Shown in pieces: positions 1 to 9,300 of a stretch of 27,574 nt of DNA. Under the pieces are notes generated by a model. The model made no database searches, was not told the DNA's origin, and saw nothing but the letters and a program-made list of their open reading frames with translations. The DNA is taken from IMG/VR virus record IMGVR_UViG_3300031601_000025, positions 1-27,574 of that record, one strand, 5' to 3'. This DNA comes from a virus. The translations under genes and the position numbers were made by a program. The first letter of the stretch is position 1, and every line of letters starts with the position of its first letter.

Positions 1-138
1 TTCACGGTGCCCGAGGCGGTGGCCCTGATGGGGAGCAACGGTTTGATGCTAGGCACAGGACCCTCAACAGGGACGCGGCAGGCGGAGGCACGTCGGGTGT
101 CCAAGAATGACCGCAATACGCTGACGGGAGGCCAGTGA
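1..138 (+). CDS. 3' end of an unidentified upstream gene (partial)
   Basis: The frame starting at base 1 is open for 45 codons and ends at TGA 136-138, which shares its last base with the ATG of the baseplate J-like gene. The visible C-terminus is Gly/Thr-rich (MLGTGPSTGTRQ), then basic and polar (RRVSKNDRN), and has no recognisable motif. The one-base stop/start overlap suggests it is translated together with the baseplate gene and is a structural or baseplate protein itself. That is inference from position only. The 5' end lies outside the window, so length and family cannot be judged. Confidence 0.7.
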   Translation, partial: FTVPEAVALMGSNGLMLGTGPSTGTRQAEARRVSKNDRNTLTGGQ

Positions 139-3100
139 TGGCGAATTACCCCGAGTTTCTGGGGCCTGACGGCACGTACCGGCAGAGCTACATCCTCTCT
201 ACGACCATCTCGCAGCAGTTTTTCACGGGCCAGATGCCTGCCGACACGGTGGACATGCAGGTGTCTATCCGAGGGGCAGAGTTCACTTCTGACCCGGACT
301 ACATCACCTTCGAGGGCACGAGTTTCACCATCCCCAACCCGTCGGCCTTTCCCGATGGGCTTCAGCTTCTTGCTGGGGATAATACGATCAAGATCCGGTC
401 CACCCTCTCGGCGGGCGGCACCACGCAGGAAGCTACCACGGCGGCCTACTTGTCCCTCGAAGCGGACATAGGTGCCCTGGCAGATGCCCCGACCGGCATC
501 CACATCGAGCGGTTCAACTCGACCGTGAAGATCACCGTCGAGGGCATCCCTGACGACTCCACTGTGGTCGGCTACCACTTCTACGCCAGCACGCAGCCGG
601 GCGGTGGGGACGTGGGCTACTACCGCATCACCCCTGCCATGCTCATTTCCGGTGAGGCTGTGGAGGTAGAGACCAGCCTTGCTTCGCTCGATGTGGACAC
701 CGATATCGCGGTGGACACTGATGGCAATCACCTTGCTGACCCGCTGTACTTCCGAATGCGGGGGTCACAGGAGGATTCGGACGACACAGAGTTGTCGGTG
801 GACTTCGACGAGCTGATGGAAGTGCCCGAGACGACCAGCAAGCTCCGGGTGGCGACCACGATCACGAGCGTGCAGGATACGTGGCAGTACACTTTCGAGC
901 ATGACCGGCAGGCCACTTTGGAGAGTGCCAAGCCCGCCCTCCCCCATTCGGCTTTGGCCACCGTGGCAGACAGCGACCCTCTCTACTACGTCGCTACAGC
1001 GGTTCACCTCATTGACGAAGTGGAGTTCGAGAGTTTCTTCTCGCCAGAGGTGGTTGGTTCTCCGCTCCGCATCATGCCGGAGGTGGGTTCCTTCCCCCAG
1101 GTGAGTCGGCAGAAGATGGTGCAGGCAGCCGTGCTATCCATCTACCGGAGCCAGCCCCAAGTGCGGGTGGACCCAGGCTCCGCGTTGCGAGACACGTTCC
1201 TCGACCCGTTCACGACCGAGAACGACCGTGTGCGGTTCATCATAGATTTCCTGCACAACGCCCAGAGCTTCGTCACCCTGTTGCTCATCGACGACCCTTA
1301 CCTGTCGGGGGAGAGCATCGCGGTCAACCAGTCGGCCTACAAGGTGGCTCTGCGTGAGGCGTTCCACCTGACGACCGATGATGAAGTCCAGACCATCATC
1401 GACAACTGCTTCGACAAGCTGGCGAGCAACTACGGCGTCATCCGAGACGGCGGCAAGCGAGCCCGAGGCGAGGTCACCTTCTACGTCACGTCTCAGCCGA
1501 CGACACCCATCACCCGGTCCATCGGCACGGGGCTGAATGGTGGGGTGTTCCGCACGACCTCGACAGCGGTAATCGTGGCATCGGGTGTGGCCCGGAACTA
1601 CGACCCATCCACAGGTCGCTATTTCGCACGGGCCTACGTCCAAGCGAATGAGGCGGGGTCGGCGGGCAACGTCTCGGCTGGCCAGATCACTAGCATCGTC
1701 AACAACACACTGAACGTGCTGGTGACCAACGAGTCTCGCACCTTCGGCGGCACCGACCGGGAATCCAACAAGGACATTGCTCTGCGGGCAATGCGGGTTC
1801 TTGCGTCGGTGGACTCGGGCACGCTCCAGGGCTACGTCAACAACGCCACGAACACGGCTGGCGTGGCTCAGGTAGCTGTTGTGGACTCTGGCAATAGCCT
1901 GATGATGAGGGACATGAACGACGAGGGCAGGCACGTCGGCGGCAAGGTGGACATCTACTTGCGAGGTGAGTCCGAAGCGAAGGTCACCGATACGTTCGCC
2001 TTCTCTTTTGAGACCCGAGACCACCACCAGTTCGAGCCTGTGGGCTCGACCACCGATCTGCGGTTCCGGGCGGTGGACCCGGCTCTGTCCGAGGACAACC
2101 CGCTCATCGAGATGATTGACTTGCCAGACCTGGACATGGTGTTCGAGGATGCCACCAAGGGCTTCGACTTCGACCTGACCGACGTGGCGTACATCGCCTA
2201 CGACCAGATCCAGCTCTCCCAGACCTACAATGACCCGACGGGCCACGACCTGACCGACGAGTTCCGAGGGGCCTACCGCTACCGCACATCCAACAGTTTT
2301 GTGCTGACCCGGCAGCCGGTTATCGAGGTGACCAGTTTCTCGGGCGAGCAGACGGGTGAGGTGCTGGAGGGTGTCTACGACCTGTTCCGGGCTTCGGACC
2401 CCTTGGTGCTCGGTAGGTCTACCGAGGCAGGCGACTACATCCAGGTGACGGAGCCGCTGACCAGTGGGGCGACCATCCCATCATCTACCCCCATTCAGGT
2501 GACGGGTGAAGAGCACACGATGCTGGAGAGCATCGAGTACCTGAACCAGCTCGGTGCCAATCCTTTGACGATCCAGGTCTTCAACAACGACCGGACCATT
2601 GAGTACAACGGCCCCTACTCGACCGGCACCCGCGACTTCACCTTCATTGACGGGGACGAAACGACCCCGATGGGCCTCCAGATCACGGACACGACGACCA
2701 TCACGGTGGGCCAAACAGTTCTCATCGACTATTCGCATGACGAGAACTTCACCGTTGCTTACACAAGCAACGCTGTGATCAATGTGGTGCAAGAAAACAT
2801 AGATGGGGACTCCCACATCACGGCTGACGCCATCGCCAAGTGGGCGGTTGAAGTTCCTGTGGACATCGGGGCTACCCTGGTCTTGCGGCCCAACAATGAT
2901 GCGGACACCGTGGACTCGGCAGCCAGGACGGATTTGGCCCGCCTCTTCGGGACATTCGGCCTCGGCACCCCGGTGCGGAAGTCCGATGTAAACCGGGTTC
3001 TCGACGCTGTGCAGGGTGTGAACTATGTGGTGAACCCCCTGACCAAGATGACCCGTGGGGATGGGGCACAGGTAGTTCGGGAGGTGGTCACCACCGACAC

Positions 3101-3620
3101 GGACAGCGACTCCGTGGCCATCAGTTCATGGTCCAGCAGCACGGTCACGGTCTACCTGCTGAACAATGCTCTGGACTCCGCCACAACCAACGCGGGCGGG
3201 GATGTCAATGAGTTCCGGGGCGTCTTCCAAGATGAGGTTCGCCTGATCCACCAGGAGACGGCACCCAACGTCAATGGCTTCCCGCTGCGGGGGACGACCG
3301 GCTCTGCCTTCATCATCGGAGCCGATGGGCTGAACATCCCTGGCTACTCGGACAACACCACCATCGAGGCGAATTACGTCCTGCCGACCGACCCGGATGA
3401 AAAGGAAGCGGACATTCTTCGCATCCGCAAGTTGCTCACGGCAGATCGGGTACTGGTGACGTACATGCCGGGCGGGGATGTGCCCGATAACCCCACCTTG
3501 CACGACTACGCCGTGACTTACGTTGTTGATGGAGATACGGGCGTGAAGAACATCGTGCCGGGACCCATCGAATACCTCGTCATCGGCAACCTGAACTTCG
3601 TGTATGACGAGGCGACCTGA
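138..3620 (+). CDS. Baseplate J / gp6-like wedge protein, enlarged
   Basis: This 1160-aa protein is a likely structural component of the tail baseplate wedge. Residues about 442-615 match the Baseplate_J pattern (Mu gp47, P2 gpJ, T4 gp6): GGVFRTTSTAVIVASG, then EAGSAGNVSAGQITSIVNN, GGTDRESNKDIALR and GTLQGYVNNA. Residues about 906-979 look like the usual J C-terminal part, including TPVRKSDVNRVLDAVQGVNY. Residues 1-235 are beta-rich and include a fibronectin-III/Ig-like stretch (about 118-230). A further beta-rich segment of about 290 residues separates the two J parts, which makes the protein much longer than typical J proteins (about 300-400 aa) or T4 gp6 (660 aa). I chose ATG 138 over the in-frame GTG at 135 because ATG 138 overlaps the previous stop by one base and has GGGAGG at 126-131. 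The family call is strong; the roles of the extra domains are inferred. Confidence 0.87.
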   Translation: MANYPEFLGPDGTYRQSYILSTTISQQFFTGQMPADTVDMQVSIRGAEFTSDPDYITFEGTSFTIPNPSAFPDGLQLLAGDNTIKIRSTLSAGGTTQEATTAAYLSLEADIGALADAPTGIHIERFNSTVKITVEGIPDDSTVVGYHFYASTQPGGGDVGYYRITPAMLISGEAVEVETSLASLDVDTDIAVDTDGNHLADPLYFRMRGSQEDSDDTELSVDFDELMEVPETTSKLRVATTITSVQDTWQYTFEHDRQATLESAKPALPHSALATVADSDPLYYVATAVHLIDEVEFESFFSPEVVGSPLRIMPEVGSFPQVSRQKMVQAAVLSIYRSQPQVRVDPGSALRDTFLDPFTTENDRVRFIIDFLHNAQSFVTLLLIDDPYLSGESIAVNQSAYKVALREAFHLTTDDEVQTIIDNCFDKLASNYGVIRDGGKRARGEVTFYVTSQPTTPITRSIGTGLNGGVFRTTSTAVIVASGVARNYDPSTGRYFARAYVQANEAGSAGNVSAGQITSIVNNTLNVLVTNESRTFGGTDRESNKDIALRAMRVLASVDSGTLQGYVNNATNTAGVAQVAVVDSGNSLMMRDMNDEGRHVGGKVDIYLRGESEAKVTDTFAFSFETRDHHQFEPVGSTTDLRFRAVDPALSEDNPLIEMIDLPDLDMVFEDATKGFDFDLTDVAYIAYDQIQLSQTYNDPTGHDLTDEFRGAYRYRTSNSFVLTRQPVIEVTSFSGEQTGEVLEGVYDLFRASDPLVLGRSTEAGDYIQVTEPLTSGATIPSSTPIQVTGEEHTMLESIEYLNQLGANPLTIQVFNNDRTIEYNGPYSTGTRDFTFIDGDETTPMGLQITDTTTITVGQTVLIDYSHDENFTVAYTSNAVINVVQENIDGDSHITADAIAKWAVEVPVDIGATLVLRPNNDADTVDSAARTDLARLFGTFGLGTPVRKSDVNRVLDAVQGVNYVVNPLTKMTRGDGAQVVREVVTTDTDSDSVAISSWSSSTVTVYLLNNALDSATTNAGGDVNEFRGVFQDEVRLIHQETAPNVNGFPLRGTTGSAFIIGADGLNIPGYSDNTTIEANYVLPTDPDEKEADILRIRKLLTADRVLVTYMPGGDVPDNPTLHDYAVTYVVDGDTGVKNIVPGPIEYLVIGNLNFVYDEAT

Positions 3621-3862
3621 TGGCGACATGGATCAAGCCCTACCGACCTTCCGACCTCATTGGGGGCCGGTATCACCAGACCCCCTCGTGCATTGATTGC
3701 GAGCACTTCCGTGTGGCGGGGATGCCCAACCATATGTGTGTCGAGCACCCTGCCAAGCACATCTGGGGGTGGGGGCCTGAGATCGAGCGGAGAGAGAACG
3801 GTGAGGTCCAGGCAGAAGAGTGCCCTGAGTGGCAGCTTGCTGCTGAGTGCGAGGAGACCTGA
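3620..3862 (+). CDS. Small Cys-rich protein, possible zinc-binding miniprotein
   Basis: This is an 80-aa protein of unrecognised family. Its cysteines are spaced C24-X2-C27-X12-C40-X27-C68, with His29, His38, His43 and His47 nearby, and a further Cys77. A CxxC pair plus two more Cys is compatible with a structural zinc site or iron-sulfur site, but the spacing matches no family I can name. Trp and Pro are common (W49-G-W-G, P69-E-W). There is no signal peptide or membrane segment. Its ATG shares a base with the stop of the baseplate J-like gene, with GAGG at 3609-3612, and its own stop overlaps the next ATG. This coupling suggests production in fixed ratio with baseplate parts, either as a minor virion part or an assembly factor. 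Being real is likely; the function is unknown. Confidence 0.75.
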   Translation: MATWIKPYRPSDLIGGRYHQTPSCIDCEHFRVAGMPNHMCVEHPAKHIWGWGPEIERRENGEVQAEECPEWQLAAECEET

Positions 3863-4659
3863 TGCGGGATTCAGTAGAGAGAGTAGCCCGAAGGTGGATG
3901 CGTCTGGCCCGCAAGGACCAGGAGAAGATCCAGGTTGCCGCTTCGATCTACACTGCTCTTCTGCGGCTCGTGAGTTCCGGTCGAGGGATGACGCTCAACC
4001 CCGCCAGGAACGAGGTGGTCATCCAGGGGAAAGCTCTGGGCTTGGGGAAGCTGACTGACAAGCTCTACTTCGATTTCAGTTCGGAGGCGGGGACGTTCTA
4101 TCAGGCGAGAAAGCAGCGGGTTCACAGAGAGAAGTATTACCTGTTTGCCTCCAACTACAAGGAAGAGATCAAGAAGGAAGTCACCCGCAACAAGAAGATA
4201 TTCATCCATGAGCTTGTCCACCACGTTGACGCCCTTCAGATAGGGGATGCCGCAGATAGGGGCTACAAGACCCCTGACGTAGACGAGGTGGCCTACTACA
4301 ACCACTCATCTGAGATGAACGCCTTCTTTCAGCAAGCGGCAGAGCCCTTTGTGAAGCGGCACCTGGACATCGTTTCCGATTTGGAAGACGACACGGGGCC
4401 GGAAAACAAGGGCTCCAATGCTCATTTGAGTGCGGTGTGGAAGCTGAGTGACCTATCCAAAGAGAAGTGGGGCCGGTTCTTCACGACTTGGAAGCGGAGC
4501 TTTGGGGCGCAATCGAAGTTCTGGGAGACGCTGACCCCCAAGAACCAACGACGGATGCAGAAGCGGGTCTACGACCTGTTCGACAAGACCGTGGGTGATG
4601 CCAAGAGGCGTATGGTGGACCTCAAGAATCGTGGGGACACGATGGCGGAGCAGATGTAG
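3862..4659 (+). CDS. Putative zincin-like metallopeptidase in the baseplate cassette
   Basis: This 265-aa protein has a hydrophobic-flanked HExxH motif, IFIHELVHHVDA, with His116, Glu117 and His120. This is the signature of zinc metallopeptidases (zincins). Glu151 in YNHSSEMNAFFQ lies 31 residues downstream and is a plausible third metal ligand in the gluzincin style. The N-terminus (1-40) and the C-terminal part (about 190-265) are strongly charged and helix-prone. There is no signal peptide or transmembrane segment. ATG 3862 is chosen because it overlaps the previous TGA by one base and has GAGGAG at 3851-3856; an in-frame GTG at 3847 is less likely. Seven of its 23 Arg codons are AGA or AGG, which look rare in the adjacent baseplate gene, a hint of separate origin. 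It could mature a virion protein, or be carried in the virion to cleave a host surface protein. Neither role is shown by the sequence. Confidence 0.78.
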   Translation: MRDSVERVARRWMRLARKDQEKIQVAASIYTALLRLVSSGRGMTLNPARNEVVIQGKALGLGKLTDKLYFDFSSEAGTFYQARKQRVHREKYYLFASNYKEEIKKEVTRNKKIFIHELVHHVDALQIGDAADRGYKTPDVDEVAYYNHSSEMNAFFQQAAEPFVKRHLDIVSDLEDDTGPENKGSNAHLSAVWKLSDLSKEKWGRFFTTWKRSFGAQSKFWETLTPKNQRRMQKRVYDLFDKTVGDAKRRMVDLKNRGDTMAEQM

Positions 4660-6302
4660 TGGCGGACCAGCCTGCTGACAAGACCTTGTTCCCGACCCTG
4701 CTCACGCAGAACCCTGCCCCTGTGGGTGGCACGGGGCAGGACCGCATCACCACGCAGCGTGAGCAGGTGGACGCCATCATGGCGGTGTTCCTCCAGATCC
4801 TCCCGTCCAACTACGTCTCGCAGGTGACTGGCCCGTTCTACACCATTCAGTTTCAGGCAGCGGCCGAGGCCATAGCTGATTTCCAGCTCACAGCGCAGGA
4901 GGTGTTCAGCGATGCCGACTACGACTACATGCGTGGCGAGTTCCTGTACCAGCTTCTAGGCGCTCTGGTGTTCCCCGATGCTACGACGGACGGCTACCCC
5001 GATTTGAAGGGGGATCTGACCTATCGAGAGTTCCTGAAGCAGATGGTCGTGCTGCTCCTTCAGGGGGCGACTAAGGACACGGTAGAGGGTGGCTTGGAGC
5101 TGTTGTCAGACGCCACCTTCACCGTAATCGAGAAGGTCATTGAGGCCCGGCACGCCACGAAGAAGGTTTGGAACGACGAGATGGGTCGGTACGACACCGT
5201 GCCCGGTTCTGCCTGGGGGTTCGACGACCAGTTCGAGTTCGAGGTCAACGCCTCATACACGGACCCGACTACTGGGATAGAGCGGTTCCCCGAGGATCCC
5301 TTCATCCTTCAGGAGAACGTCCGTATCGTGATGCGGGCTTTGAAGCCTGCCCACACGATCTATGAGTACCGCAACCTCTTCACCGAGGTCTTCGGCAGCT
5401 TTTTCTCGGCCAGTTCTTCTTGGGATCTGTCGAACTACTACTACGCGGACTTCCGCAAGTTCTGCTGTGGGGCTAAGAATGTCGCTGGTACGGCAGGCGT
5501 GACCTGGACCGACAAGAGCCTCTTCAGCGACACGGATCGGGAGTTCGACCAGATCGCTGTTGGTGCCGAGTTGGTCGTCATCTCCGGCCCCAACAGCATC
5601 AATGCGAGTGCTACCGACCGTGGGGAATTCGGCCGTTACCGGGTGAAGGACGTGCTGGCGTTTCCGCTGGGGACGGATTCGACGCCGAGGGCGTATACGA
5701 CCAGTCCTTCCGGGTTTGTCGGCAAGGCCACGGTGACGGCAGACGTGATTGAGGACACTGACTCCATTGGTGTCCTGGCCAACAACTTGCTGAAGGTCAC
5801 GAACACGACTTCGGTTCGGTTCTTGGCAGGCGAGTTCTTCATCCGCATCTCGACCGACCTCTTCACGCCGGTTGGGGTGTTGGCCTTCAGTGCCGACCCA
5901 GGCAGTGGCAGCGGGGTCGAGTACCTGACGGCCATTTCGGGCAGCGACCCTGTGGGCCGGTTGAAGTTCGGTTCCCAGCTCCTCATCGACTACGCGGATG
6001 CGGCGGTGGCCTACGTTGGGGACTGGACTTCAGCGGTTGAGGGGGAGGCTTTGACCTTCACCGAGGGGCTGAACGCCGGGACTTACCGGCTCAAAACTTT
6101 GCTTGGGACAAATGGTGGCCTCATAGGCGGGGCCACGGGGCCTGGAACGAAAGTTCGGGTCTCCCACAGCCTGATTCGGACGGAACGACGGATGAAAATA
6201 GCGGCGACTGGCCAGCAGTACACGGTGGTTGTAGACCGCTTGGGTGTGCAGGAGCCACGTTCCGTAGATGCCGAAGACGCTAGTAGCTACTTCGTCGCTT
6301 AG
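4659..6302 (+). CDS. Putative baseplate/tail structural protein in the tail protein I position
   Basis: This 547-aa protein starts at GTG 4659, which shares a base with the preceding TAG (4657-4659), with GGAG at 4647-4650. The N-terminal half is helical and amphipathic. It includes DYDYMRGEFLYQLLGALVF, a segment at about 122-160 (REFLKQMVVLLLQGATKDT, then GLELLSDATF) and DDQFEFEVN near 191. Such segments recall large-phage baseplate proteins encoded beside J proteins. Residues about 255-275 carry an aromatic and Cys stretch (YYYADFRKFCCGAKN). The C-terminal half, from about residue 275, is beta-rich with VGAELVVISGP- and FRYRVKD-like strands, perhaps one or two small beta domains. No catalytic motif is visible. 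The position after a J-like gene suggests a baseplate periphery component comparable to P2 gpI, but direct homology to gpI is not evident by eye. Confidence 0.7.
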   Translation: MADQPADKTLFPTLLTQNPAPVGGTGQDRITTQREQVDAIMAVFLQILPSNYVSQVTGPFYTIQFQAAAEAIADFQLTAQEVFSDADYDYMRGEFLYQLLGALVFPDATTDGYPDLKGDLTYREFLKQMVVLLLQGATKDTVEGGLELLSDATFTVIEKVIEARHATKKVWNDEMGRYDTVPGSAWGFDDQFEFEVNASYTDPTTGIERFPEDPFILQENVRIVMRALKPAHTIYEYRNLFTEVFGSFFSASSSWDLSNYYYADFRKFCCGAKNVAGTAGVTWTDKSLFSDTDREFDQIAVGAELVVISGPNSINASATDRGEFGRYRVKDVLAFPLGTDSTPRAYTTSPSGFVGKATVTADVIEDTDSIGVLANNLLKVTNTTSVRFLAGEFFIRISTDLFTPVGVLAFSADPGSGSGVEYLTAISGSDPVGRLKFGSQLLIDYADAAVAYVGDWTSAVEGEALTFTEGLNAGTYRLKTLLGTNGGLIGGATGPGTKVRVSHSLIRTERRMKIAATGQQYTVVVDRLGVQEPRSVDAEDASSYFVA

Positions 6303-6354: not shown

Positions 6355-9300
6355 ATGCCTGCGGTTATCACGAGTGCTCTGTTCGATTCGCCCGGTGGTG
6401 CCCCCGTTGGTGTGGCGGCGATAAACAGCCGAGACGATCTGCAACTCGGCTATCAGGTGGCCCTGAACTCTGTTCATACGGCCAGCAGTTATTCGTGGTC
6501 CTTGAGCTTCGCCTCGGACTCGCCGGGTTCTGCGGCATCTCCGTTTGATGGTACGCAGTCGAATTCTGCCCTGCTTGCGCCCCTCGGGAGCACGAGCCGG
6601 ACTGCCCTCTTCAACGTGGACTATGATGGGGTGTACCTCATTCGTTTGACGACGGATGTTGGTGTGACTGGTGTTGAGGACACGCAGTTCGTCCGCTTGA
6701 GGGTGCTGACCATGTTCGGCTCTCTCAAACTCATCGCGGCAGGCGAGCGGCGTGACGAGAATGGTGTCATTCCGGTAGATGCCACGCCAGAGGGCTGGAC
6801 GAACGATCAGAACGCTAATGTCCAGCGATTGTCCATTCTTCTTCGGCGGTTGTCGCACACTGGGCGTGTCCTGTTCGTGGATTCTAACCGTGGACGGGAC
6901 ATCGCGAACACCCCGGACGATTACGACACCGTGATCTCCATCCCTGGCCCAGATACTGCTCAGCCAGTGGCGACGGGGATCAAGCTGCGGGCTCTGGCCC
7001 ATGGTGATTTCTCGACCATTAACGAAGCCATCACCTACGCTGCGGCAGCAGCAACACGGGGTGAGGCGGCCCTGAGTCGAGCGGAGCCCTACTTCATCGT
7101 GGTGCGGAAGGGTCTCTACAATGAAGACCTCGCCCTCCAGAGCTTCATCCACATCATCGGGGACGACACGCCGATCAATGACGAGATGAACTCCCTTGGG
7201 CTGTCCACCGAGAACGTGACAGTGCGGACGGTGAACGCGGGTGGTGTTGGTACGCACTCCTACAACCCTGGGGGGCTGGCCACCGCTCACGAGTGCTTCC
7301 TGTTCAACCTGAACTTGGAAGGCACCGCGACCACGACCCTGCCCGTGCTCCGGCAGTACGGCGGCTTGCTCAAGCTGTACCGCTGCACCGTGGATCAGAA
7401 GGGTGACTCAGCTACCCAAGGCGAAGCCCTCCGGTGCGTTGTCTCGAACATCCTCCACATTCCACAGCTCTGGCTGGAAGAATGTCTGATCAATACGGAC
7501 GCCACGACAGCTAGCCGTGTGGCTTTGCGGGTGGACGCCATCGGCTCTACCTGCGTCATGGATAGGACGAAGGTTACGGCGGCGGCAGCCAATGCGGTGC
7601 TGACCAATGAAAGTTTGTATGAGAACTGCGACTTCTATTGCCGGGACAATTCCCTGATTAGTGGGTTGGTCGGCTACTACGGTTATAGCTCTTCGCAGAC
7701 GTTCATTCACAGCCATGCTGTTTCTGGTACGACTACACCCGCTATCACGGTGGAACCTTTCAGTGGGGCTGCCGGTTCCAAGACAGGTAACGTGGCAGTA
7801 GCCCTGTCGGACATGCACGTCTCTCATGATGTGTCCTTCTCCACGGCTGGTGCAGCGGGCACTACCAGCTTGGAGATGTCGAATGTTCGGAACGACCAGA
7901 CGACGGGCGGTTCCCACGTCTTGTTCCCTGACGCTCCTGGTGATCTGCCTGATACCTACTACCCCCACCTTGATTCGGAGACGATCCGATACGTTGTTGA
8001 CCACTTTGACCCACTACTTGGTGTAGCGGCATCACCGACCATCCCTGTAGCTAATCGGCTCAACCGGGAGAATGTGCAAGAGGTCATTGACGCTATCCAG
8101 TTAGGTGCGTTCCCAATAGTAGGGGCTCCCTTCTGCTCGCTGGATTCTGCTTACGATGGCCTTTCTACTCTTACCCCCCCTACTCCGGGTCCAGGGTTGG
8201 GTCGCCGCATCATCGCGACAAGCGGTGCTGTGCAGGTCACGGGTGGTACGGCACCGTTTGGGGTGGATGACGAGTCGAAGCCGGGTGGTATCCAGGCAGA
8301 GGGCATCATCGACATCGGTGGCCTTATCAACGGAACGGCTGGGCAGACCATTGCTGATGTGGGTGGCAGCGAAATCCACCTGAACCCCAACATGATGGGG
8401 GTCGGCCCCTTCATCAGTCTCGGTCGAGCCGCTTGGACAGGCGGGGTCCTGGGTGGGGACCGAGGCTTCGGTGGAGCCGCCATCGTCGCCAACTACTCCG
8501 GCAGTGTGGGTACGGAAAATTCGTACAACTTACACCTTCGCACGAACTCGGGTCGTGCTTCTGGTACAGGCAAGCTCGGTAACATCTACGTCGTCGCTGG
8601 CTACATTCAGGACTCCACCAGTGGGGATGACCCAGGTGATGTCCACATTGTCGCTGGCGGCACGGTGGTCAATGGTGGGACGCCCGGTGATGTTTTCATT
8701 GCACCGGGTACTGAGGCTGGCGGCACAGGCGGGGTCGTCTGGATCTGTGGTGCGGGCAGCCGGACGTGGGCTTCGGTGCCTGCGGTCAATGCCTACGTCG
8801 GTAACGTGACGGGTGACGCATTCTTTGGCACCCCAACAGGCATCCAGAGCTTCACGTTTACCAGTGGGCAGAATATCGCAGCAGCTATCGCCGTGTTCAA
8901 CGCCACGGCTCGCGGGTTCGTAGCGTCCGAGGCCCCAGCAGGCAAGATCACTCTCACGAACGAGGACAACACCGCTGGGGATATTGTCTACGTCGGTGAC
9001 ACGACGAGCGGCACACTCAACACGTCCCTGGGCAACTTCCTGTCGTCGGATGTCACTTTTGTTCCTGGTACTTACGGAGATGTCGTCGCCTTGGATGTAC
9101 CTGTAGCTGATCGGCTCCGGGTGAATGGTGACCTCGAAGTCACGGGCGTTATCATCGCAGGCGGTTCCGGCTACACGCAGGTAACTTCCAACACCTGGAC
9201 CGATATTGTAGGTACGATCCACACGGTGGGCGTGGTCTTGAATGCAACCATCGACACCATCCTCCTTCTGGACGCCTCGTTGGTTTCTTACGGGCAGAAC

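Follow-up and report, generated by a model that had tools for sequence, protein, structure and literature searches.

The window analysed here is a 27.6-kb IMG/VR record that probably represents part of a larger genome; in it, two genes lie between a baseplate J-like gene and a tail gene (Table 1). The second of them, a candidate zincin, carries HELVH at residues 116–120 and Glu151 exactly as stated in a preliminary description of this DNA, which had read it as a metallopeptidase belonging to a baseplate cassette. The one-base overlaps reported there on both sides of this ORF are also present (TGATG at 3860–3864 upstream, TAGTG at 4657–4661 downstream), and a third overlap, TGATG at 3618–3622, links J to the gene for the Cys-rich protein. 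No Pfam match was found for the Cys-rich protein, whose only distant match was in Tunturiibacter phage Tunturi_5 (33%, 9e-6). The downstream tail gene had no Pfam match and no significant PHROG match.

Table 1. Features at the J-to-tail-gene junction of the window.
Feature	Coordinates	Strand	Basis
Baseplate J-like protein, upstream edge of the slot	135..3620	+	Pfam Baseplate_J 9.8e-18; phrog_6 baseplate wedge 5.3e-25
Two-gene insert in the J-to-tail-gene slot	3620..4658	+	Slot comparison across related loci; J tree
Cys-rich protein, 80 aa, CxxC and two further Cys	3620..3862	+	ORF, slot comparison
HExxH zincin-like metallopeptidase, 265 aa	3862..4659	+	Motif, 22-sequence alignment, AF2 model, viral structure matches
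N-terminal extension MRDSVERVARRWMRLARK ahead of the conserved domain	3862..3915	+	Alignment, model
HELVH, residues 116–120: predicted zinc ligands His116/His120, general base Glu117	4207..4221	+	Invariant in 22/22
Asp123, three residues past HExxH, invariant	4228..4230	+	Alignment
Tyr145, invariant	4294..4296	+	Alignment
Glu151-x-Asn153-Ala154: predicted third zinc ligand and invariant neighbours	4312..4323	+	Start of helix 149–176
Conserved tail gene, downstream edge of the slot	4659..6302	+	Follows J in nearly all relatives

The codon bias noted earlier was confirmed by counting. AGA and AGG account for 7 of the 23 Arg codons in the zincin ORF, versus 38 of 372 in the window's other genes (Fisher p = 0.009), and the GC content of the ORF is 55.8%, versus about 57–61%. 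The gene was probably acquired later, as had been proposed.

A lone HExxH may occur by chance within 265 residues, and the window protein alone matched no profile in Pfam, PHROG or NCBIfam. Relatives were nevertheless found. A tblastn search of phage records gave a distant pair in the uncultured 484-kb phage LR756508, from which a member in Salicola phage SCTP-2 (gp462) was reached, and a profile-based IMG/VR scan gave L007/L025, a 50% identical relative located at the same point of the baseplate operon. A scan of IMG/VR with the family alignment then returned 23 loci, two of them on already-known contigs, thus 21 further contigs. In an alignment of 22 members, from jumbo-phage contigs, LR756508 and Salicola phage SCTP-2, residues H116, E117, H120, D123, Y145, E151, N153 and A154 are invariant (22/22), over sequences only 15–50% identical to the window protein. 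Since His116, Glu117, His120 and Glu151 are identical in all of these diverged members, the motif is real and not due to chance. Homologues lacking HExxH, which the preliminary description had named as evidence against its reading, were not encountered among the 22 members found.

The family was found here in phages only, mainly in jumbo-phage contigs. Two scans of bacterial-genome contigs revealed no bacterial relative and identified no donor, and no plasmid copy was found. Among known families, Peptidase M76 (PF09768) gave weak matches, covering the HExxH region, to 5 of the 22 members (best 0.0037); the best score, 17.5 bits, lies below the Pfam cut-off of 25.2, and these matches were in relatives only, not in the window protein. 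None of the 22 members matched the SprT Pfam profile at E 0.05, nor the ArdC profile.

An AF2 model of the window zincin built from a 19-sequence alignment reached a pLDDT of 86.4 and a pTM of 0.82 (an earlier model from four sequences, with a pLDDT of 67.9, was discarded as too poor). In the model, an N-terminal helix is followed by strands, then by the HExxH helix (111–132) and a further helix (149–176) with Glu151. HExxH and Glu151 thus stand on consecutive helices, which bears on the structural check proposed in the preliminary description. The extension MRDSVERVARRWMRLARK was modelled as a basic helix with reduced confidence. No significant fold match was found among solved structures in the PDB (best Foldseek E 2.3, VIA Z at most 4.9). 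The weak PDB matches were mostly HExxH peptidases, selecase among them, and IrrE/PprI. VIA-align matches with Z <5 were given no weight in assigning the fold, and a family missing from that list is not thereby ruled out. Among predicted viral structures, two unnamed phage proteins were matched at 8e-6 and 2.6e-5 with a TM of about 0.6, the only viral matches below 0.001. As no PDB match was significant, the fold call rests on topology, on the conserved residues and on the weak agreement among HExxH proteins; on these grounds, a zincin-like layout is probable for the modelled protein.

To place the insert, the J-to-tail-gene slot was compared across 47 IMG/VR loci with a J relative, some of which are near-identical copies. 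Most of these have no insert, and the stop codon of J overlaps the start codon of the tail gene (TGATG or TAATG). No zincin is present in relatives with about 70–80% identity to the window in J and the downstream tail protein: the two genes either touch or are separated by unrelated inserts. Six loci (L010, L014, L015, L021, L022, L024) hold a family of 80–85 aa proteins starting with MIY(D/V)R, for which the L014 copy gave no Pfam match. Other occupants are a 95-aa Cys/His-rich ORF (L026), an 84-aa ORF (L028), a 69-aa ORF (L051) and, at 8453–9310 of L050, a GIY-YIG/NUMOD3 homing-endonuclease-like gene. Cargo may have reached the slot by way of the latter.

Among the J loci compared, only the window and L025 hold a zincin at this place, and the L025 slot does not have the Cys-rich gene. 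On the J tree, L025 belongs to a different clade from the window, and the window's sister, 83% identical, has an 85-aa ORF in the slot instead. Between the window and L007/L025, identity is 50% for the zincin, close to the 54% of J and the 60% of the tail gene. The zincin at the slot may therefore be ancestral with repeated loss, or may result from separate gains. An assembly chimera was ruled out by the presence of the gene at the same place in the independent contig L025/L007.

Conservation together with the baseplate genes, expected of a structural protein, was not observed for the zincin, and its optional presence across related J loci gives no support to its being a component of the baseplate cassette. 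The zincin is thus one of the optional cargo genes of a hypervariable slot, and most likely neither a baseplate subunit nor an obligatory maturation protease. Because the insert is optional, its location is weak evidence about function.

At the window's junctions, GAGG(C/A)GACCTGATG occurs at the end both of J and of the Cys-rich gene (3609–3622 and 3851–3864), and it also matches the empty junction in several relatives. Microhomology is one possible reading; a ribosome-binding site together with the stop/start overlap would be a simpler one.

Outside the slot, zincins are patchily distributed in unrelated contexts. They are absent from most window-family contigs, and one 332-kb contig (G027, IMGVR 3300037851_000141) has six copies between 101954 and 243088, one of which is interrupted by stops. 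Two members adjoin head or connector genes, a terminase in L184 and a head-tail adaptor-like gene in L186, which fits a virion role but does not point to injection specifically. The members of L009, L192 and L198 are longer ORFs. That of L009 has an in-frame ART-PolyVal domain upstream (2.2e-8); in the other two, the additional segments match PHROGs without an assigned function.

At the position of MRDSVERVARRWMRLARK, many other family members carry a peptide resembling the T4 capsid-targeting sequence described for packaged proteins (PMC3012670, PMC5694885); examples are MKLSNLLFED, MKLEQLFEDP, MNLYDIFES and MKLQDLLEA. The likeness was judged by eye and by pattern, and the two papers are not about these phages. 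The motif was present on 11 of the 20 family members outside the slot, several of the carriers being closely related to one another, versus 0–5% of genes in window-family contigs; in LR756508 it was present on 30 of 621 predicted genes, versus 1 of 1230 internal Met positions. Because the sequences had been inspected before the patterns were drawn up, all these figures are descriptive. The window copy and its 50% relative L007 do not have the motif, and packaging therefore cannot be assumed for either.

In LR756508 (W01), about 30 genes share an N-terminal M(x)(L/F)KxLLxE-like motif while their sequences are otherwise different, and clusters of them lie near 177–183, 212–224, 255–265, 297–300 and 327–338 kb. 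One of the tagged proteins is zeta-toxin-like (8e-9), and nine others that were scanned had no Pfam match.

Several known systems offer points of comparison. In phage zincins, the HExxH helix is followed by a helix with the third-ligand Glu, and the phage-type polyvalent MPTase class has an Asp three residues after HExxH and a His ending strand 2 (PMC5512222). The present family resembles these domains by its HExxH, the Glu on the next helix, Asp123 in 22/22 members, the ART-PolyVal fusion of one member and a phage conflict context. The topology of the model agrees with theirs, strands flanked by an N-terminal helix and then two C-terminal helices, but no PDB fold match was significant. As for the strand-2 His, 4 of 22 members have a His at the His88 column, where strand numbering and alignment are uncertain. 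In contrast to the MPTase domains, most members are small stand-alone proteins without a Pfam match, the window copy lies in a baseplate slot, and it is a single-domain protein, whereas polyvalent proteins are recognized by several domains. The SprT- and ArdC-like zincins of jumbo phages are likewise patchy, sometimes multi-copy, and were proposed to cut host proteins (PMC7824862), but the present members match neither profile. With the internal head proteins and Alt of T4, which are packaged by way of a short N-terminal peptide that is cleaved after Glu, the family shares a similar short N-terminal peptide on many non-slot members, and in LR756508 such a peptide is common to many proteins; it differs in that the window copy lacks the peptide. 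The resemblance to Peptidase M76 is confined to the sub-threshold matches given above.

The ART-PolyVal fusion, the tagged zeta-toxin-like protein, the N-terminal peptides and the patchiness together point to host-directed effectors, in line with earlier proposals (PMC5512222, PMC7824862). We therefore favour, with somewhat better than even confidence, a phage family of host-directed accessory effector zincins which in relatives are packaged in the head and injected, and of which one copy was inserted into a hypervariable slot. In this scheme, the protein would be a soluble enzyme in which His116, His120 and Glu151 would hold zinc, Glu117 would activate a water molecule, and a peptide bond of a host protein would be cut. 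Head packaging followed by injection with the DNA would be the best-supported delivery in relatives. The gene would have been inserted, alone or with the small Cys-rich gene, between J and the next tail gene, where the stop/start overlaps would keep the operon translated. An extended version is more doubtful: the family would consist of unnamed stand-alone effectors packaged by means of N-terminal peptides common to dozens of cargo proteins, and one lineage, having moved its zincin into the cargo slot of the baseplate operon, would deliver it through a different signal or with the tail.

An unpackaged peptidase, expressed late inside the cell and directed against host, competitor or defence proteins, appears unlikely. 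Patchy distribution and the lack of a capsid-targeting-like peptide on the window copy would suit it, and the operon location would give late expression, but the peptide-bearing relatives suggest that packaging is common in the family. The main idea of the preliminary description, a virion-borne baseplate enzyme cutting a host surface protein during adsorption or penetration, is in our view improbable. The gene does lie inside the baseplate operon and would be co-expressed with it, and a 50% relative occupies the same place; however, the slot is hypervariable, elsewhere accommodates a homing endonuclease or unrelated ORFs, and holds no insert in most relatives whose J is about 70–80% identical, and other family members lie in unrelated contexts. 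The enzyme may still be virion-borne, but as an injected effector rather than as a baseplate enzyme that cuts surface protein.

It is highly improbable that the protein is a different metal enzyme, for instance an iron/alpha-ketoglutarate oxygenase with HExxH, or a degenerate protein without enzymatic function. An HExxH oxygenase domain (8s5f, E 2.3) was the top PDB Foldseek match, but it was not significant and the other weak matches were mostly HExxH peptidases and IrrE/PprI; HExxH and Glu151 are fully conserved in the alignment, which speaks against a degenerate protein. Still less credit can be given to a maturation protease processing a neighbouring structural protein, a role proposed for a different jumbo-phage zincin (PMC7824862) and favoured here by those members that adjoin head or connector genes. 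The zincin is lacking in close relatives, although their J and downstream tail proteins are highly similar; six copies are present in one contig and none in most window-family contigs. Of the preliminary reading, the metallopeptidase, its third ligand and a probable later acquisition are thus supported, whereas membership of the cassette and maturation of the neighbours are not.

The proposed effector family has invariant active-site residues and no Pfam match above the cut-off. The junction where one copy lies is a site of a jumbo-phage baseplate operon at which cargo genes come and go while the operon stays unbroken, and it cautions that location within a structural cassette should not be taken as evidence for a structural function. 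Were the tagged relatives packaged, they would provide a list of candidate injected host-modifying enzymes.

Two other N-terminal patterns were inspected. VAxRW showed no enrichment when considered as a virion tag shared within the window family. An LRxxLIRLAHENPxxxxxxLLPLLK-like motif is common to several different proteins of contigs G013 and G012, and the string LIRLAH was not found in the literature searched. The window N-terminus resembles LRxxLIRLAHENP only weakly, the pattern having been written after that N-terminus was seen. The motif occurs, for example, at 244559, 251902 and 300362 in G013, and at 35969, 39142 and 41539 in G012.
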